NCBI GenBank assembly: GCA_021819125.1
Contig: JAKARW010000016.1
Span: 1-37,783, forward strand
DNA length: 37,783 nucleotides
Direction: 5' to 3'
Source of the DNA: Pseudomonadota bacterium
GTDB taxonomy: Bacteria > Pseudomonadota > Gammaproteobacteria > Acidiferrobacterales > Acidiferrobacteraceae
The translations under genes were made by a program, and so were the position numbers. The stretch's first letter is position 1; each line of letters opens with the position of its first letter. The notes under the pieces are model-generated. The model was not told where the DNA came from, made no database searches, and saw nothing but the letters and a program-made list of their open reading frames with translations. This document shows, piece by piece, positions 30,361-37,690 of the stretch.

Positions 30361-31852
<1,492 letters not shown>

Positions 31853-31861
31853 GCTGAGGGT

Positions 31862-33448
31862 ATGTCCAGACAGGGCAAGGCAGAGGACCCGGGTCGTGAG
31901 CGGATCCTGATTCTGGATTTCGGCTCGCAGTATACGCAGCTTATCGCCCGGCGCGTGCGCGAGGCCGGCGTCTACTGCGAGATCATGCCCTATGACGTGC
32001 AAGACGAGGCCATCACGCGTTTCGCGGCGCGCGGCGTGATTTTGTCGGGCAGCCCCGAGTCGGTCAATGAGCGCGATACCCCACGAATCCCGGATGCGGT
32101 GCTGGCGGCGAACGTGCCGGTGCTCGGCATTTGCTACGGCATGCAAGCCTTGGCGGCACAGCTCGGCGGGCAGGTAGCGGCCGCGGCGCATCGCGAATAC
32201 GGCTATGCGCGCGTGCGCACCGTCGGGCATTCGCCATTGCTTGCGGATTTGACCGATGGCGGCGATGGTGAGGCGGTGCTTGATGTGTGGATGAGTCATG
32301 GCGACCGGGTCGAGGCCTGCCCGCCGGGCTTTTTGGCCATCGCCGAAACCGACAATGCACCGTTCGCGGCCATTGCCGACGAGGCGCGGCGCTACTACGG
32401 TCTGCAATTCCATCCCGAGGTCACCCATACCCGGCAGGGGCAACGCATCATCGAGCGCTTCGTGCATGAGATCTGCGGGTGTCCGCGCGCCTGGACGGAG
32501 CGGACGATCATAGACGGCATCCTCGAGGAGATTCGCGCGCAGGTGGGTGATGAGGAGGTGGTGCTCGCACTCTCCGGCGGCGTTGATTCCTCGGTGGTCG
32601 CGGTGCTTTTGCATCAGGCGATCGGCGACAGGCTCACCTGCGTATTCGTGGACAACGGGCTTTTGCGATTGCACGAGGGCGATCAGGTGATGGCGACCTT
32701 CGCCGATCATCTCGGGGTGCGCGTGATCCGCGTGAACGCCGCCGCGCGCTTTCTCGGGGCCTTGAAGGGCGTGGACGACCCCGAGCGCAAGCGCAAGATC
32801 ATAGGCGAGACCTTCATCACGGTGTTCGAGGAAGAGGCCGCGCGTCTTCCGCAGGTTCGGTGGCTCGCCCAGGGGACGATCTATCCCGACGTCATCGAAT
32901 CGGCGGGCGCCAAGGGCGGCAAGGCCCGGGTGATCAAGTCGCACCACAACGTAGGCGGCCTGCCCGAGCGCATGAAGTTGAAACTTCTGGAACCCTTGCG
33001 GTCGCTTTTTAAAGACGAAGTGCGGCGTATCGGACTTAGTCTCGGACTGCCGGAGGCCATGATCCACAGGCATCCCTTTCCAGGGCCGGGCCTGGGTGTG
33101 CGTATCCTTGGGGCGGTGGAGGAGCGCTATGCCGATATCCTGCGGCAGGCCGATGCGATCTTCATCGAGGAATTGCGGCGTGCCGGCTATTACGACAAGG
33201 TGAGCCAGGCATTCGCGGTGTTCCTGCCAGTGCGGTCGGTGGGGGTGGTGGGCGACGGCCGCGCCTACGAGCACGTCATTGCCCTGCGCGCGGTCGAGAC
33301 CATCGATTTCATGACGGCGAACTGGGCCGAACTCCCCTACGCCCTCCTTGGGCGCGTCTCGAATCGAATCATAAACGAGGTGCGTGGCGTAAGCCGTGTG
33401 GTTTACGACGTATCGGGCAAGCCCCCCGCTACTATTGAGTGGGAATGA
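31862..33448 (+). CDS. guaA: GMP synthase (glutamine-hydrolysing)
   Basis: Converts XMP to GMP using glutamine and ATP. 528 residues (E. coli 525). The class I amidotransferase domain has Cys91 (GICYGMQ) and FHPEVTHT. The ATP-pyrophosphatase loop SGGVDSS is at 238-244, and the C-terminal dimerisation domain ends [16 protein letters not shown]. It is intact. The 3' end adjoins the integrase region. guaA 3' ends are a known target of tyrosine integrases, and the last codons can be restored by the incoming element. Confidence 0.97.
33431..33439 (+). repeat. 9-bp repeat at the guaA 3' end, copy 1 (candidate att core)
   Basis: ACTATTGAG lies in the last codons of guaA and recurs at 33617-33625, 186 bp downstream. 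It may belong to the left attachment site of the island. The right attachment site is outside the window, so the core cannot be fixed. Confidence 0.35.
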
Positions 33449-33749
33449 ATTGACGTCCTTCGGGGACTATCGGCAGCTATCGAAAAACTGACGTAACGTG
33501 TTGATATAAAACGAAATACGTCACGGCAGCTATCGGTGGCTATCGCCGGCCAGCAAAACGGGTTGACGGTAGAGCTGACGGTAAGAACCGGAGGTCGGAT
33601 TAAGACCCTCCCGTTTACTATTGAGACCAAACCGGTCTTTGACGGTAAAACGCTCCCCTGGAAAGCTTGTTTCATGCGGCTTTCCGGGCATCGACGGGTC
33701 TCCTGGCCCCTGACGGTAAAAGCCGTCACCAACAGGAGGAAAAACCTCG
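33449..33749 (+). promoter_or_regulatory. Island left-end control region (attachment, arm and operator repeats)
   Basis: 301 bp without a gene between guaA and the integrase. It contains: CTATCG four times in two pairs phased at 10 bp (33467, 33477; 33530, 33540); an inverted repeat TGACGTA (33489-33495) / TACGTCA (33517-33523); an extended -10 TGATATAAA between its arms; TGACGGTA four times here and twice just inside the integrase gene; and a second ACTATTGAG. This is the expected layout of integrase arm sites and an int operator. A strong AGGAGG at 33734-33739 serves the integrase. Confidence 0.55.
33489..33523 (+). promoter_or_regulatory. Inverted repeat bracketing a candidate int promoter
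   Basis: TGACGTA and TACGTCA are 7-bp perfect arms 21 bp apart. Between them TGATATAAA (33502-33510) is an extended -10. A protein bound to the arms would cover the promoter, so autorepression of int, or excisionase binding, is a fair guess. Confidence 0.4.
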
Positions 33750-33856
33750 ATGCTTACCGACACAGCACTGCGCAATCTTAGTCCTAAGTCATTGATTTAT
33801 AAGGTTTCTGACCGGGATGGGATGTACGTGACGGTATCGGCCGCCGGTACCGTCAC
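33563..33856 (+). repeat. Six TGACGGTA repeats before and within int
   Basis: TGACGGTA occurs at 33564-33571, 33576-33583, 33640-33647, 33711-33718 and 33829-33836, and in reverse (TACCGTCA) at 33849-33856. Copies 1-2 are 12 bp apart, copies 3-4 are 71 bp apart. Three continue as TAA(AA). An 8-mer recurring six times in 300 bp is far above chance. Likely arm-type sites for the DUF4102-like N-domain of the integrase. Confidence 0.6.
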
Positions 33857-35006
33857 CTTTCGCTACGATTACCGTCTCAACGGGCGCCGCGAGACCCTGA
33901 CCATCGGCCGCTATGGTCCTGGCGGCATCTCGTTGGCGCTGGCCCGCGAAAAGCTGCTCGATGCCAAGAAGGCCGTCGCTGCTGGCCGTTCTCCGGCACT
34001 GGAAAAGCAGCGTGAGAAGCGCCGGCTGACTGCTGCCAAGAACTTCGGCGACGTCGCCGTCAAGTGGCTGGCGGACGCCCGGATGGCTGACAGCACACGC
34101 GCGATGCGCAAGCACGTCGTCGATCGCGACATCCTGCCGGTGTTCCAGAACCGGCTGCTCAACGAAATCACTGCCGATGACCTGCGCGCCTTGTGCAACA
34201 AGGTGAAGGCGCGCGGGGCGCCCGCCACGGCGGTGCATGTCCGCGACATCGTAAAGCAGGTCTATGCCTTCGCCATCCTGCACGGCGAGAAGGTGGACAA
34301 CCCGGCCAGCGATGTGGCAGCGGCCTCGATCGCGACCTTCGTGCCGAAAGACCGGGCGCTTTCGCCGGCAGAGATCCGGCTGGCGTTCCATCAGTTGGAG
34401 TCCATCGCGACCTATCCGACGATCCGCCTAGCGCTGCGCATGGTTCTGCTGACCCTGGTGCGCAAGAGCGAGCTGATCGAGGCCACCTGGAGCGAGATCG
34501 ACTTCGAGAATGCCACCTGGACGATCCCGAAGCAGCGAATGAAGGGACGCAACCCGCACGTGGTCTATCTGTCGCGGCAGGCCCTGGACATCCTGGTGGC
34601 GCTGCACACGTGCGCGGCGGGCTCGAAGTTCGTGCTGCCCTCGCGCTATGAGCCGACGCGTTGTATGTCGCACGCGACCCTGAACCGGGTGACACAGCTC
34701 ATCGTGGAGAGGGCCAAGGCAGCCGGTCTGCCGCTGGAGCCGTTCACGGTGCATGACCTGCGCCGCACCGGCTCGACGCTGCTCAACGAGGTGGGCTTCA
34801 ACGGCGACTGGATCGAAAAGTGCCTCGCGCACGAGGAAGGGCGTTCCTCGCGCTCGGTCTACAACAAGGCGGAGTACGCCGAGCAGCGGCGCCACATGCT
34901 GCAGGAGTGGGCGGACATGGTCGATGCTTGGATCGACGGGCGCACCCATGTGCCCAAGCTGCTGCCGGAGAACGTGTCGGTCACGGTGCTCAGTGCGGCT
35001 TTGTGA
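33750..35006 (+). CDS. P4-type tyrosine integrase at guaA
   Basis: 418 residues. An N-terminal arm-binding domain of the DUF4102 kind (about 1-90), then a core-binding SAM-like domain (100-190) and the catalytic domain (200-390). Candidate active-site residues are R238, K265, H335 and R338 (VHDLRR), H361 (CLAHE) and Tyr371 (VYNKAEYAEQRRHMLQEWADM), as in P4 and other island integrases. It is co-directional with guaA and lies 301 bp after it, which suits a guaA-specific integrase. It should cut and join the element at the guaA 3' end; excision would need a partner, perhaps the AlpA-like protein. Confidence 0.93.
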   Translation: MLTDTALRNLSPKSLIYKVSDRDGMYVTVSAAGTVTFRYDYRLNGRRETLTIGRYGPGGISLALAREKLLDAKKAVAAGRSPALEKQREKRRLTAAKNFGDVAVKWLADARMADSTRAMRKHVVDRDILPVFQNRLLNEITADDLRALCNKVKARGAPATAVHVRDIVKQVYAFAILHGEKVDNPASDVAAASIATFVPKDRALSPAEIRLAFHQLESIATYPTIRLALRMVLLTLVRKSELIEATWSEIDFENATWTIPKQRMKGRNPHVVYLSRQALDILVALHTCAAGSKFVLPSRYEPTRCMSHATLNRVTQLIVERAKAAGLPLEPFTVHDLRRTGSTLLNEVGFNGDWIEKCLAHEEGRSSRSVYNKAEYAEQRRHMLQEWADMVDAWIDGRTHVPKLLPENVSVTVLSAAL

Positions 35007-35074
35007 AGGGATGCCCGCATGATGCCTGCATCGGAACTCGCTGTCGGCGGGCAGCGCAGGGTTTGCATAAATCG

Positions 35075-35105
35075 AAAAAGGATCACTATGAGTGATCTTT
35101 TCAAA
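35075..35105 (+). promoter_or_regulatory. Palindrome between int and abiEi (operator or terminator)
   Basis: GATCACT (35081-35087), ATG, AGTGATC (35091-35097): perfect 7-bp arms, extended by A-T pairs to about 11 bp, with As before and TTTT after. It can be read as an intrinsic terminator for int, or as the inverted repeat that AbiEi antitoxins bind to repress their own operon. Its central ATG is in frame with abiEi and has AAAGGA upstream, so it is also a possible start. Confidence 0.5.
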
Positions 35106-35162
35106 TTCTTGTCAAACTGGTCGGCCTTGGCGATGGTTTATAAATCTGGTATTTTGGGCACT

Positions 35163-35984
35163 ATGGATGCTCAAAATTCAGGAAAGCTGAACCGCTTGCT
35201 GGCCGAGCTGGGCGATACGCGCCTGGTGTCCAGCCGCTGGCTACGAGCGCACGGCTACTCCAACAGCCTTGTGGCGCGCTATGTGGGCAGCGGCTGGCTG
35301 GTTTCGCCGGCGCGTGGCGTCTACATGCGCAGGGGCGGGCGGCTGCAATGGGATGGGGTGCTCCGCAGCCTACAGGTCGGGGAGGGCATGCCGCTGCACG
35401 TCGGGGGGCGTTTCGCACTGGCCCTGCAGGGGCACGAGCACTACTTGCGCCTGGGCGATGCCGGGACGATCACGCTGTATGGACCACAGCAACCGCCGCG
35501 CTGGTTAGGCAAGCTGTCGCTGGAGCAACGCTTCGAGTTCCTGGGCAAGGGGCCGCTCGATCTGCCGGCCGTGTCTGTCACCGCGGAAGTCTCCGAGAAG
35601 GCGCTGTCAGAGGTGGGCCTGGCTTGGCATTCCGCGGCGCCTGGGACCGATGCCCTGATTTGCTCGACGCCCGAGCGTGCCATGCTGGAGCTGTGCGATG
35701 GCGTGACGGACGCGGCGCTGGTCTACGAGGCCGATGCGCTGATGCAGGCCATGACCACGCTGCGTCCGCAGCGGGTCGGCCTGCTGCTGCGCCACTGCCG
35801 CAGCATCAAGGCCAAGCGGCTGTTCCTGGCCCTGGCCGATCGTCATCGGCATGCGTGGCTGATCCATGTGCCGCTGGATGGCGTCGATCTGGGTCGGGGC
35901 AAGCGCGCGCTGGTCCCCGGCGGGCGTCTGCATCCGACCTACCAGATCACCTTGCCGGGAGACCTCGATGAGCACCTGGCTTGA
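35163..35984 (+). CDS. abiEi: AbiEi family antitoxin / transcriptional regulator
   Basis: 273 residues. The N-terminus (SGKLNRLLAELGDTRLVSSRWLRAHGYSNSLVARYVGSGWLVSPARGVYMRRG) is the winged helix-turn-helix of AbiEi, and the rest is the C-terminal antitoxin domain. In type IV AbiE systems AbiEi represses the operon and neutralises AbiEii without forming a stable complex. ATG 35163 is chosen because the family begins just before GKLNRLL. ATG 35088 is in frame, has a better ribosome site and would add 25 residues. The 100 bp upstream are AT-rich, unlike the surroundings. The 3' end overlaps abiEii by 17 bp. Confidence 0.88.
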   Translation: MDAQNSGKLNRLLAELGDTRLVSSRWLRAHGYSNSLVARYVGSGWLVSPARGVYMRRGGRLQWDGVLRSLQVGEGMPLHVGGRFALALQGHEHYLRLGDAGTITLYGPQQPPRWLGKLSLEQRFEFLGKGPLDLPAVSVTAEVSEKALSEVGLAWHSAAPGTDALICSTPERAMLELCDGVTDAALVYEADALMQAMTTLRPQRVGLLLRHCRSIKAKRLFLALADRHRHAWLIHVPLDGVDLGRGKRALVPGGRLHPTYQITLPGDLDEHLA

Positions 35985-36915
35985 CCATTGGGACCGGCGC
36001 TACACCGACCGGGTGCGGCTGCTGGTCGAGATCCTGCCAATACTCGCGTGGGAGCCGCGTTTCGCGCTCAAGGGCGGCACGGCCATCAACCTGTTCGAGC
36101 ACGATCTGCCGCGTCTGTCGGTGGACATCGATCTGGCCTGGTTGCCGGTGCATGACTATGCCGAGGATGCGAGGCTGATCGCCGAAGCGCTGGGGAGGCT
36201 GGCCGATGTGCTGCGCGCCCGGCCTTTGCAACTGCAGGTGCAGACCTCGGCGGGCGAGGGCGGGGCGGTCACCCGTTTGGTGGCCAGCCGCAGCCGGGCG
36301 CGCGTGCAGATCGAGACGACGCCGGTGATGCGCGGTACGGTGCATCCGGTGCGCCGCATGGTCGTGCGGCCACGGGTGGAAGAGGCGTTCGGCTTCGCCG
36401 AGGTGCAGGTGCTGGACTTCGCCGACCTGTATGCCGGCAAGCTGGCGGCGGCGCTGTCTCGGCAGCATCCGCGCGATCTCTTCGACGTAGGCTTGCTGCT
36501 GCAGGACGAGCGGGCGGACGAAGCGCTCTGGCACACCTTCCTCGTGTACCTGACGTGCAGTCCCAAGCCGGTTTGGGAGATGCTGGCGCCGCGTGTGCCC
36601 ACGGATTTCGAGGCCACCTTCGAGGCCCATTTCAAGGGCATGACAGCCGAGCCTATCGGCGTGGCGGCTTTGCTGGAGAGCCGCGAGCGCCTGTTGGCGC
36701 GGGTCGCGCATTGGCTGGATGGGCCGTCGCGCGCCTTTCTGCAATCCGTCGAGGATGAGAAGCCGGATTTCAATTTGATCGGACTTGACCATGCGGCCGA
36801 TCTGCCCGGCGTGCGGCGCAAGCTGCACAACCTGGCGCAGCGCACGGTCGCCAAGCGTGCGGCAGATCGCCGGCAGCTTGACGAAACGCTGGCGCGGATC
36901 GCTGGTGCCGGATGA
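35968..36915 (+). CDS. abiEii: AbiEii family nucleotidyltransferase toxin
   Basis: 315 residues of the DUF1814/AbiEii DNA polymerase-beta-like transferase family. Motif I is LKGGTAINLF (GGT at 36-38) followed by D53 and D55 (VDIDL). DLYAGKLAAALSRQHPRDLFDV (K158, R169, D170, D173) holds the later motifs. Members modify tRNA or other RNA by adding nucleotides, stopping growth; AbiE systems can abort phage infection. The start has GGGAGA upstream and overlaps abiEi. All motifs look intact, so the toxin is probably active. Confidence 0.9.
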   Translation: MSTWLDHWDRRYTDRVRLLVEILPILAWEPRFALKGGTAINLFEHDLPRLSVDIDLAWLPVHDYAEDARLIAEALGRLADVLRARPLQLQVQTSAGEGGAVTRLVASRSRARVQIETTPVMRGTVHPVRRMVVRPRVEEAFGFAEVQVLDFADLYAGKLAAALSRQHPRDLFDVGLLLQDERADEALWHTFLVYLTCSPKPVWEMLAPRVPTDFEATFEAHFKGMTAEPIGVAALLESRERLLARVAHWLDGPSRAFLQSVEDEKPDFNLIGLDHAADLPGVRRKLHNLAQRTVAKRAADRRQLDETLARIAGAG

Positions 36916-37199: not shown

Positions 37200-37577
37200 T
37201 CATCGAACAGGGCGGTGCCGGCGCAGTCTCACGTCCGGGCCGGCCGATGCGTCGGTGTTCGCTGATCGAGAGGCTTGCTTGCGGTCTTCGATCCAGGCTT
37301 GGACCTCTTCCAGATCCCAGACGACGCAGCGGGGCGTGAGTCGGAACCGCCTGGGGAACTCGCCGCGCTGCTCCATTTCGTAGACTGTTGTCTCGGCCAG
37401 GGGGACGATCTGGTGCAGCTCGTGCCGGCGGATGGTGCGACGAAAGGGCAGGGGACTGCGCTTCGGAAACTGCGGCAGTGTCTCGTAGGCTTCCGTGCCC
37501 GGCAAGGGGAGAGATTGGTCGGCGTCAATGCCGACGGCGTTGGATGCTTGCGCTAGCTGTTCCACCTCGGACTCCAT
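37200..37577 (-). CDS. AlpA-like helix-turn-helix regulator
   Basis: Up to 125 residues from ATG 37577; GTG at 37649 and ATG at 37619 are longer in-frame starts, none with a good ribosome site. The core RRHELHQIVPLAETTVYEMEQRGEFPRRFRLTPRCVVWDLEEVQAWIEDRKQAS is the MerR-like winged helix of AlpA proteins, which in P4-like elements activate integrase or act as excisionase. The first 45 residues and the last 25 (Arg-rich) are low in conservation. It faces the 80-residue gene 25 bp away. Pairs of an integrase at one side and AlpA inside are typical of islands. Confidence 0.8.
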   Translation of the reverse strand: MESEVEQLAQASNAVGIDADQSLPLPGTEAYETLPQFPKRSPLPFRRTIRRHELHQIVPLAETTVYEMEQRGEFPRRFRLTPRCVVWDLEEVQAWIEDRKQASRSANTDASAGPDVRLRRHRPVR

Positions 37578-37690
37578 GAATTTGCTGCATGGAGTGTTAA
37601 CGATCACGAAGAAGCGCATTAATTTGGGACAGGTACGCGGAACGTCCACCGGGGATGGGGGGTGTAGCTGTCACGGGGTTGGATGGAAGA

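Follow-up and report, generated by a model that had tools for sequence, protein, structure and literature searches.

The gene guaA is a described integration target of epsilon15-type phages (PMC8138268, PMC9782041), and a published tree groups the epsilon15 cluster of guaA integrases with the epsilon15 and CMGI-3 integrases (PMC8138268). The attP/attB core of phage ZX5 contains GAGTGGGA (PMC9782041), a sequence that was also proposed as the core of GIsul2, for which Int is described as sufficient for integration (PMC9376610). For ICEMlSymR7A, the described IntS arm consensus is TGKTGGTATC, with five sites, none of them dispensable for integration (PMC11963761). KplE1 has an attL that overlaps the intS promoter, and self-repression by IntS is given as about five-fold (PMC2951348). 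The GenBank record of phage epsilon15 holds four 'protein_bind, integrase' features, each GTGACGGTAT, at −287, −65, +170 and +260 of int. Since the motif and sites within int are already labelled for this relative, as annotation without experiment, sites of this kind are already known.

The window analyzed here is a stretch of 37,783 nucleotides of contig JAKARW010000016.1 (assembly GCA_021819125.1) from a Pseudomonadota bacterium of the Acidiferrobacteraceae. It carries six clustered copies of the 8-mer TGACGGTA around the start of an integrase gene (int) next to guaA. An earlier note read these repeats, from their spacing and placement, as arm-type integrase binding sites. That reading is strongly supported by sequence comparison: the motif is found at the int start in the best 80 of 473 relatives and at the other end of relatives' elements. 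The repeats are very probably arm-type sites of the element's own integrase. The element would be an ICE or island of the guaA/epsilon15-type integrase group, integrated at GAGTGGGA in the 3′ end of guaA, with the window as its attL.

Repeats between guaA and int

Features of the locus are listed in Table 1. The guaA stop codon lies about 300 bp before the int ATG and the core is in the guaA tail, which indicates integration at the guaA 3′ end. Three Pfam domains were assigned to the int product, Arm-DNA-bind_3, Phage_int_M, and Phage_integrase. The Phage_integrase match (PF00589, E 2e-21) identifies a tyrosine recombinase, and the N-terminal match (PF13356, E 8e-18) is to the family of DUF4102 or IntSXT-type arm-binding integrases. 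The N-terminal domain also matches structures 3ju0 and 3jtz by sequence. Residues R238, K265, H335, R338, H361, and Y371 are invariant in 25 of 25 aligned integrases and correspond to the catalytic R, K, H, R, H, and Y of tyrosine recombinases. An AbiEi/AbiEii type IV toxin-antitoxin pair (Pfam) is encoded at 35019–36915, directly 3′ of int. The contig ends at 37783, 2.8 kb past int, and three pattern searches for this element's own right end gave no convincing attR or P-arm pair.

Table 1. Features of the guaA–int locus (window positions)
Feature	Position	Strand	Basis or remark
guaA (GMP synthase), target gene	31862..33448	+	ORF; Pfam GMP_synt_C, GATase; last codons are the attachment site
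attL core GAGTGGGA	33437..33444	+	published core in GIsul2 and ZX5; more copies at right ends of relatives
Four CTATCG boxes at 33467, 33477, 33530, 33540 (core+30, +40, +93, +103)	33467..33545	+	candidate AlpA sites
Candidate arm site P′1 (core+127)	33564..33571	+	exact motif; position kept in relatives
Candidate arm site P′2 (core+139; 12 bp past P′1)	33576..33583	+	exact motif; position kept
Candidate arm site P′3 (core+203)	33640..33647	+	exact motif; near relatives
Candidate arm site P′4 (core+274), just 5′ of int ribosome-binding site	33711..33718	+	exact motif; near relatives
int, tyrosine recombinase, 418 aa, N-terminal Arm-DNA-bind_3	33750..35006	+	ORF, Pfam, AlphaFold model
Possible weak site TACCGACA, one mismatch, at int start	33755..33762	-	sequence match
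Candidate arm site in int, codons 27–29	33829..33836	+	exact motif; codon bias
Candidate arm site in int, reversed, codons 33–36	33848..33855	-	exact motif
Weak candidate site TACCGTCT, one mismatch, in int	33870..33877	-	codons 42 and 43 biased (ranks 8 and 5 of 319)
AlpA-family gene, candidate recombination directionality factor	37200..37649 (ORF bounds)	-	Pfam PF05930, E 2e-11

The six copies of TGACGGTA span 292 bp between the guaA end and int codon 36, and the last two fall within the int frame. Exact positions thus confirm the five forward copies and one reversed copy that the earlier note placed in about 290 bp reaching into int. A seventh copy in the window is at 30975, within the IMPDH gene (guaB). 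No other 8-mer in the window has at least five copies inside 300 bp. Dinucleotide-shuffled versions of the window hold a mean of 0.30 copies, and seven copies were reached in 0 of 100 shuffles. The whole genome (2.15 Mb, both strands) has 66 copies, the six of the cluster included, versus 50 of a reversed-letter control. The genome-wide count, which the earlier note had proposed, is near background outside the cluster, at about one copy per 36 kb. At this background 0.008 copies are expected in 292 bp; the probability of at least six is about 3e-16, and about 4e-7 once corrected for every 8-mer and every window start. The count of 66 versus 50 therefore rules out a common host-genome word. Six copies in 292 bp are far from chance, and a chance cluster is ruled out by the shuffles, the genome count, and the corrected probability.

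Conservation of the repeats and sites inside int

A scan of one genome per species gave 473 stretches encoding an int relative, and the best 80 (79–96% identity) were kept. At least one exact TGACGGTA is found near the int start in each of these 80. The surroundings of their int starts, a nominal 38.4 kb in total, hold 341 copies, versus 18 in the other 498 kb of these loci. Usual distances from the int ATG are −186, −174, −110, −39, +79, and +98 (reversed), within 1–2 bases. Sites are shifted by about 10 bp in seven relatives (L074–L080), and L008 has one exact copy only. guaA or its tail is upstream of int in 71 of the best 80 of 473, in some as a contig fragment only. The guaA end is about 305 bp before int in relatives, with one at 1408 bp.

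Leaders were aligned for 77 of the 80 near relatives, leaving out L009, L032, and L056, which have too little upstream DNA, and conservation was seen over much of the leader, not at the sites alone. Because of this broad conservation, close relatives alone prove no site-specific selection, and the argument was moved to relatives below 80% identity. Distant integrases were drawn from plasmids, E. coli, phages, viral contigs, and whole-genome searches. The drift comparison used 45 rows (40 distinct genes) with Asp40 whose identity to the closest of four reference integrases is <80%. In these rows identity to the window is 75% over the first site pair (543 of 720 ungapped columns), versus only 42% over the rest of core+12 to core+184 (3002 of 7065 ungapped columns). 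The repeats are thus kept while their flanks drift, as the earlier note had asked of related integrases. TGACGGTA persists down to about 51% amino acid identity with largely drifted flanks. The first pair is out of ungapped register or poor in some distant rows (e.g., 2–4 of 16 columns in L155, L160, L211, L226, and L227), and others keep only one good copy of the pair (e.g., L158 and L247).

An exact TGACGGTA lies inside int in 67 of the best 80 of 473 relatives and is missing from 13. Intragenic sites are not universal. In distant groups the copy stands elsewhere (+65, +79, +170, or +260) or is missing, and several distant rows have none (e.g., L146, L149, L150, L152, and L097).

Codon usage was ranked over 319 testable columns for synonymous-codon bias. 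Codon 29 (Val) ranks 1; all 81 integrases compared (the window's and those of the best 80 of 473 relatives) have GTA there, although GTA makes up 8.4% of their valine codons. Thr28 is ACG in all 72 integrases having Thr there (rank 10), and Gly33 is GGT in 67 of 81 (rank 11). At the weak site at 33870, Arg42 and Leu43 rank as listed in Table 1. Little bias is seen at Val27 (rank 92) and, in the reversed site, at Thr34 (rank 132) and Thr36 (rank 91); Val35 is not rankable. Codons 2 (Leu2), 6 (Ala6), and 12 have strong bias (ranks 4, 2, and 9) unexplained by strong sites, and codon 2 adjoins the possible weak site at 33755. Because Ala6 and Leu2 rank high without a strong site, sites explain only part of the codon bias in early int. 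The proposal that codons inside int carry both protein and binding information holds for the forward site at 33829, which is clearly constrained at the DNA level (codons 28 and 29). At the reversed site at 33848 dual coding is weakly seen, with bias at Gly33 and little at Thr34 and Thr36. The forward site offers a clear case of a protein code and a putative DNA-binding site on the same bases.

The intragenic pair at 33829 and 33848 might instead be kept as a hairpin of the int mRNA. The pair belongs to a 14-nt inverted repeat that is 93% complementary with 1 nt between the arms, and inverted arm-site pairs followed by T runs, terminator-like by eye, lie between core and int in L094, L097, and L098. 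Among the best 80 of 473 relatives, however, nine have an exact forward copy but no exact reversed one, and seven show the converse. Codon 29 is GTA in all 80, even in the 17 with neither copy exact, and the intragenic copies of distant relatives stand at the other positions given above. An RNA hairpin as the main cause is disfavored by these sequences and appears improbable; DNA sites for Int are preferred for the intragenic copies as well.

Site base, integrase residues, and CTATCG boxes

Whether the fourth base of the site is C or T goes with integrase residues 40 and 47 in 170 of 170 guaA-group rows. CGGTA exceeds TGGTA in 134 of 134 Asp40 rows, and the reverse is found in 32 of 32 Asn40 and 4 of 4 Gln40 rows. 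These rows have at least 100 bp upstream and include repeats; rows distinct by the first 600 int bases number 125, 27, and 3. The D/N/Q comparison excludes ten rows whose residue 40 is R, K, or S; none of these has the guaA core in reach. Gln40 rows also hold some CGGTA (mean 1.75 vs 4.00 TGGTA). GIsul2-type integrases lack exact TGACGGTA near int and have CATGG(T/C)A-like pairs in its place, and a third integrase group has TGTTGGTA pairs. Only three of the first 120 columns show no overlap between the classes: 40 (D vs N/Q), 47 (R vs Q/S), and 87, the last of which divides them as cleanly as the other two. The tree has two switches of site class within the guaA group. A single clade of all N/Q rows was rejected (p-AU 0.00014) in a test that was run after the tree was seen and whose tested columns were in the tree. 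The contig of L209 (D40/R47), the sister of the Q40 clade, starts 66 bp upstream, and its site class was left unread. The rule is looser outside the guaA group, where ICEMlSymR7A look-alikes have Ala40/Gln47 with T and L099 has Ser40/Gln47 with an apparent G (TGTGGGTA, TGCGGGTA).

In the AlphaFold model of Int (mean pLDDT 84.6, pTM 0.54), residues 35–43 and 46–55 are strands joined by a two-residue turn. Strand pairing would place residues 40, 42, and 47 on one face of this hairpin. As a rule of thumb, Asp goes with C, Arg with the opposite G, and Asn or Gln with T:A. It is about an even call whether a two-residue code operates, with Asp40 and Arg47 specifying C (TGACGGTA) and Asn/Gln40 and Gln/Ser47 specifying T (CATGGTA, TGTTGGTA). 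The tandem-pair attP design would have stayed, while Int and the sites at both ends, and in int where present, would have been rewritten together at least twice. The link between residues and site base may be the new part here. Literature searches on guaA-integrase arm sites and arm-domain specificity found no title or abstract stating such a link (subscription papers were outside their scope), and a search for the 8-mer TGACGGTA itself gave no integrase work among the titles listed. With this link, arm-site recognition by the Arm-DNA-bind_3 group becomes a testable two-residue, one-base hypothesis.

The CTATCG boxes form two 10-bp-spaced pairs between the core and the first arm pair. In 42 distant D40 rows CTATCG is the top 6-mer of this interval, with 45 copies, some at the same positions, and with at least two copies in only 38% of rows. 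It is absent from 31 N40 rows, where TGGCA repeats are found. CTATCG is not rare in the window (30 observed vs 17 expected). Their position between core and arm pair, together with the AlpA gene, suggests that the boxes are putative sites of the directionality factor.

The TGACGGTA repeats themselves might be bound by the AlpA-family directionality factor and not by Int. An AlpA gene lies in the window, and the directionality factor TorI is described as binding repeated sites in KplE1 attL (PMC2951348). Against this, the motif class tracks residues 40 and 47 of the Int N-terminal domain in every guaA-group row, the matching ICEMlSymR7A motif is described as an IntS arm site (PMC11963761), and the CTATCG array is separate, between core and arms. 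Binding of the repeats by AlpA is thus very improbable, and binding by Int is preferred.

Both ends of the element and comparison with known systems

Right cores of relatives were picked by sequence and place before the adjoining DNA was read for arms. Eleven right ends came from 19 genomes and seven from 13 genomes or records; the rest had no clear copy or were left aside. The core GAGTGGGA recurs at the right end of relatives' elements, and a motif pair lies about 84 and 72 bp before it at all 18 right ends or junctions examined (including L092 and L250–L256). The first copy is 82–85 bp before the core, and the spacing is 12 bp in 17 of 18, the same as in the int-side pair at core+127/+139, and 13 bp in L083. 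Some pairs are imperfect: L085 has one mismatch per copy, L090 has two mismatches in the second copy, and the copies differ in L250 and L251. Five of the 18 right ends (L083, L085, L090, L251, and L256) are on another contig than int, and their link to int is presumed. Where the link to int is known, the right-end sites belong to the same class as that element's Int; the 18 ends come from 12 D40, 4 N40, and 2 Q40 elements. The two ends are 12–131 kb apart where both are on one contig.

Both pairs are seen together in the unbroken attP of viral contig L103. The attP of epsilon15, phiV10, and Tyrion has the P′-side pair, with mismatches in P′1, and one exact P site. The core+127/+139 and approximately core−83 distances are kept from this element to the epsilon15-type phages (51–53% identity). 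As far as sequence can tell, in the attP of relatives the core has arm-like sites to its left and right, an arrangement like that of lambda-type systems. Paired arm sites provide a sequence-only route to both ends of guaA islands, the GIsul2 type included.

Further arrangements were observed in single records. L092, with L063 and L091 (one Xanthomonas arboricola contig), is a tandem array at guaA. At the right end of an N40 GIsul2-like element there is a CATGGCA pair, and the int side of a D40-type TGACGGTA element follows directly; each end carries its own site class. L100 (Sphingomonas parapaucimobilis p5, 3975 bp, circular) is annotated with only guaA, int, and alpA, and its annotated int start comes after an in-frame stop. 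L100 is either an excised guaA–int circle or an assembly product. Outside the guaA group, L135, L139, L173, L190, and L099 have 12-bp-spaced repeat pairs of other motifs upstream of int, and L190 has GGGCACA, on either strand, seven times near int. Tandem arm pairs may be a general feature of Arm-DNA-bind_3 integrases.

In the proposed mechanism, the N-terminal domain of Int would grip TGACGGTA and the catalytic domain would act on the core, with Int bridging arms and core. Left of the core, the circular form would have two sites 12 bp apart, at about 84 and 72 bp; integration would place this pair at the far right end, where relatives have it and which for this element is outside the contig. 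On its int side, after the pair at core+127/+139, sites would stand singly at +203, +274, +392, and +411 (reversed), with those at +392 and +411 in int. Since both the int leader and the first 105 bases of the frame carry such sites, Int is expected, when bound to them, also to lower its own transcription. At 33300–34100 there is no promoter or terminator call and a simple scan gave no sigma-70-like promoter; the expectation of autorepression therefore rests on analogy.

A role as operator only, by which Int or another repressor would control int with no part in recombination, is hardly credible. The repeats do surround the int leader, and KplE1 IntS is described as repressing itself from attL, with P4 cited too (PMC2951348). 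However, a same-spaced pair lies at the opposite end of relatives' elements, as far from attL as the two ends are apart, and autorepression is expected in addition to recombination, not in its place.

As arm-type sites of Int, the repeats can be compared with those of four described systems. Salmonella phage epsilon15, with phiV10 and Tyrion, shares the core GAGTGGGA, the pair at core+127/+139, the P site at core−83, and the guaA target, and two of the GTGACGGTAT copies labelled as integrase sites in epsilon15 are inside int. In a tree built here without CMGI-3, the epsilon15, phiV10, and Tyrion integrases fall among the guaA integrases. Differences are that the epsilon15-type integrases are only about 51–53% identical to this Int, that P′1 has one or two mismatches, that the int start is 204 bp from the core in epsilon15 versus 313 bp here, and that the intragenic sites are at +170/+260 versus +79/+98. 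GIsul2 also has the guaA 3′ end, the core GAGTGGGA, an AlpA gene, and tandem arm-like pairs, but differs in motif (CATGG(T/C)A), in pair position (near core+139/+151), and in residues (N40 and Q47). The word 'arm' is absent from the main text of the GIsul2 paper (PMC9376610).

ICEMlSymR7A likewise has repeated arm sites upstream of int (PMC11963761) and differs in its tRNA-Phe target (PMC8627217), in its motif TGKTGGTATC, and in its directionality factor, RdfS. Its arm consensus is the motif of the Q40 class here. A pair pattern derived from this consensus was found in 12 of 119 genomes of one genus, and a control gave 0. In 11 of these 12 loci the start of a related integrase lies a few tens of bases farther downstream (L262, L264, L266, and L268 were read in part); the spacing between the first and second motif copies is 12 bp in ten of the 11 and 10 bp in the other. 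These look-alike loci share the Arm-DNA-bind-type N-terminus, by alignment, and the 12-bp pairs. KplE1 IntS differs in its arm motif (TAAA part) and its tRNA target. Compared with these systems, the locus is ordinary in kind and unusually clear, with putative arm-type sites of a guaA integrase that lie partly in its own gene.
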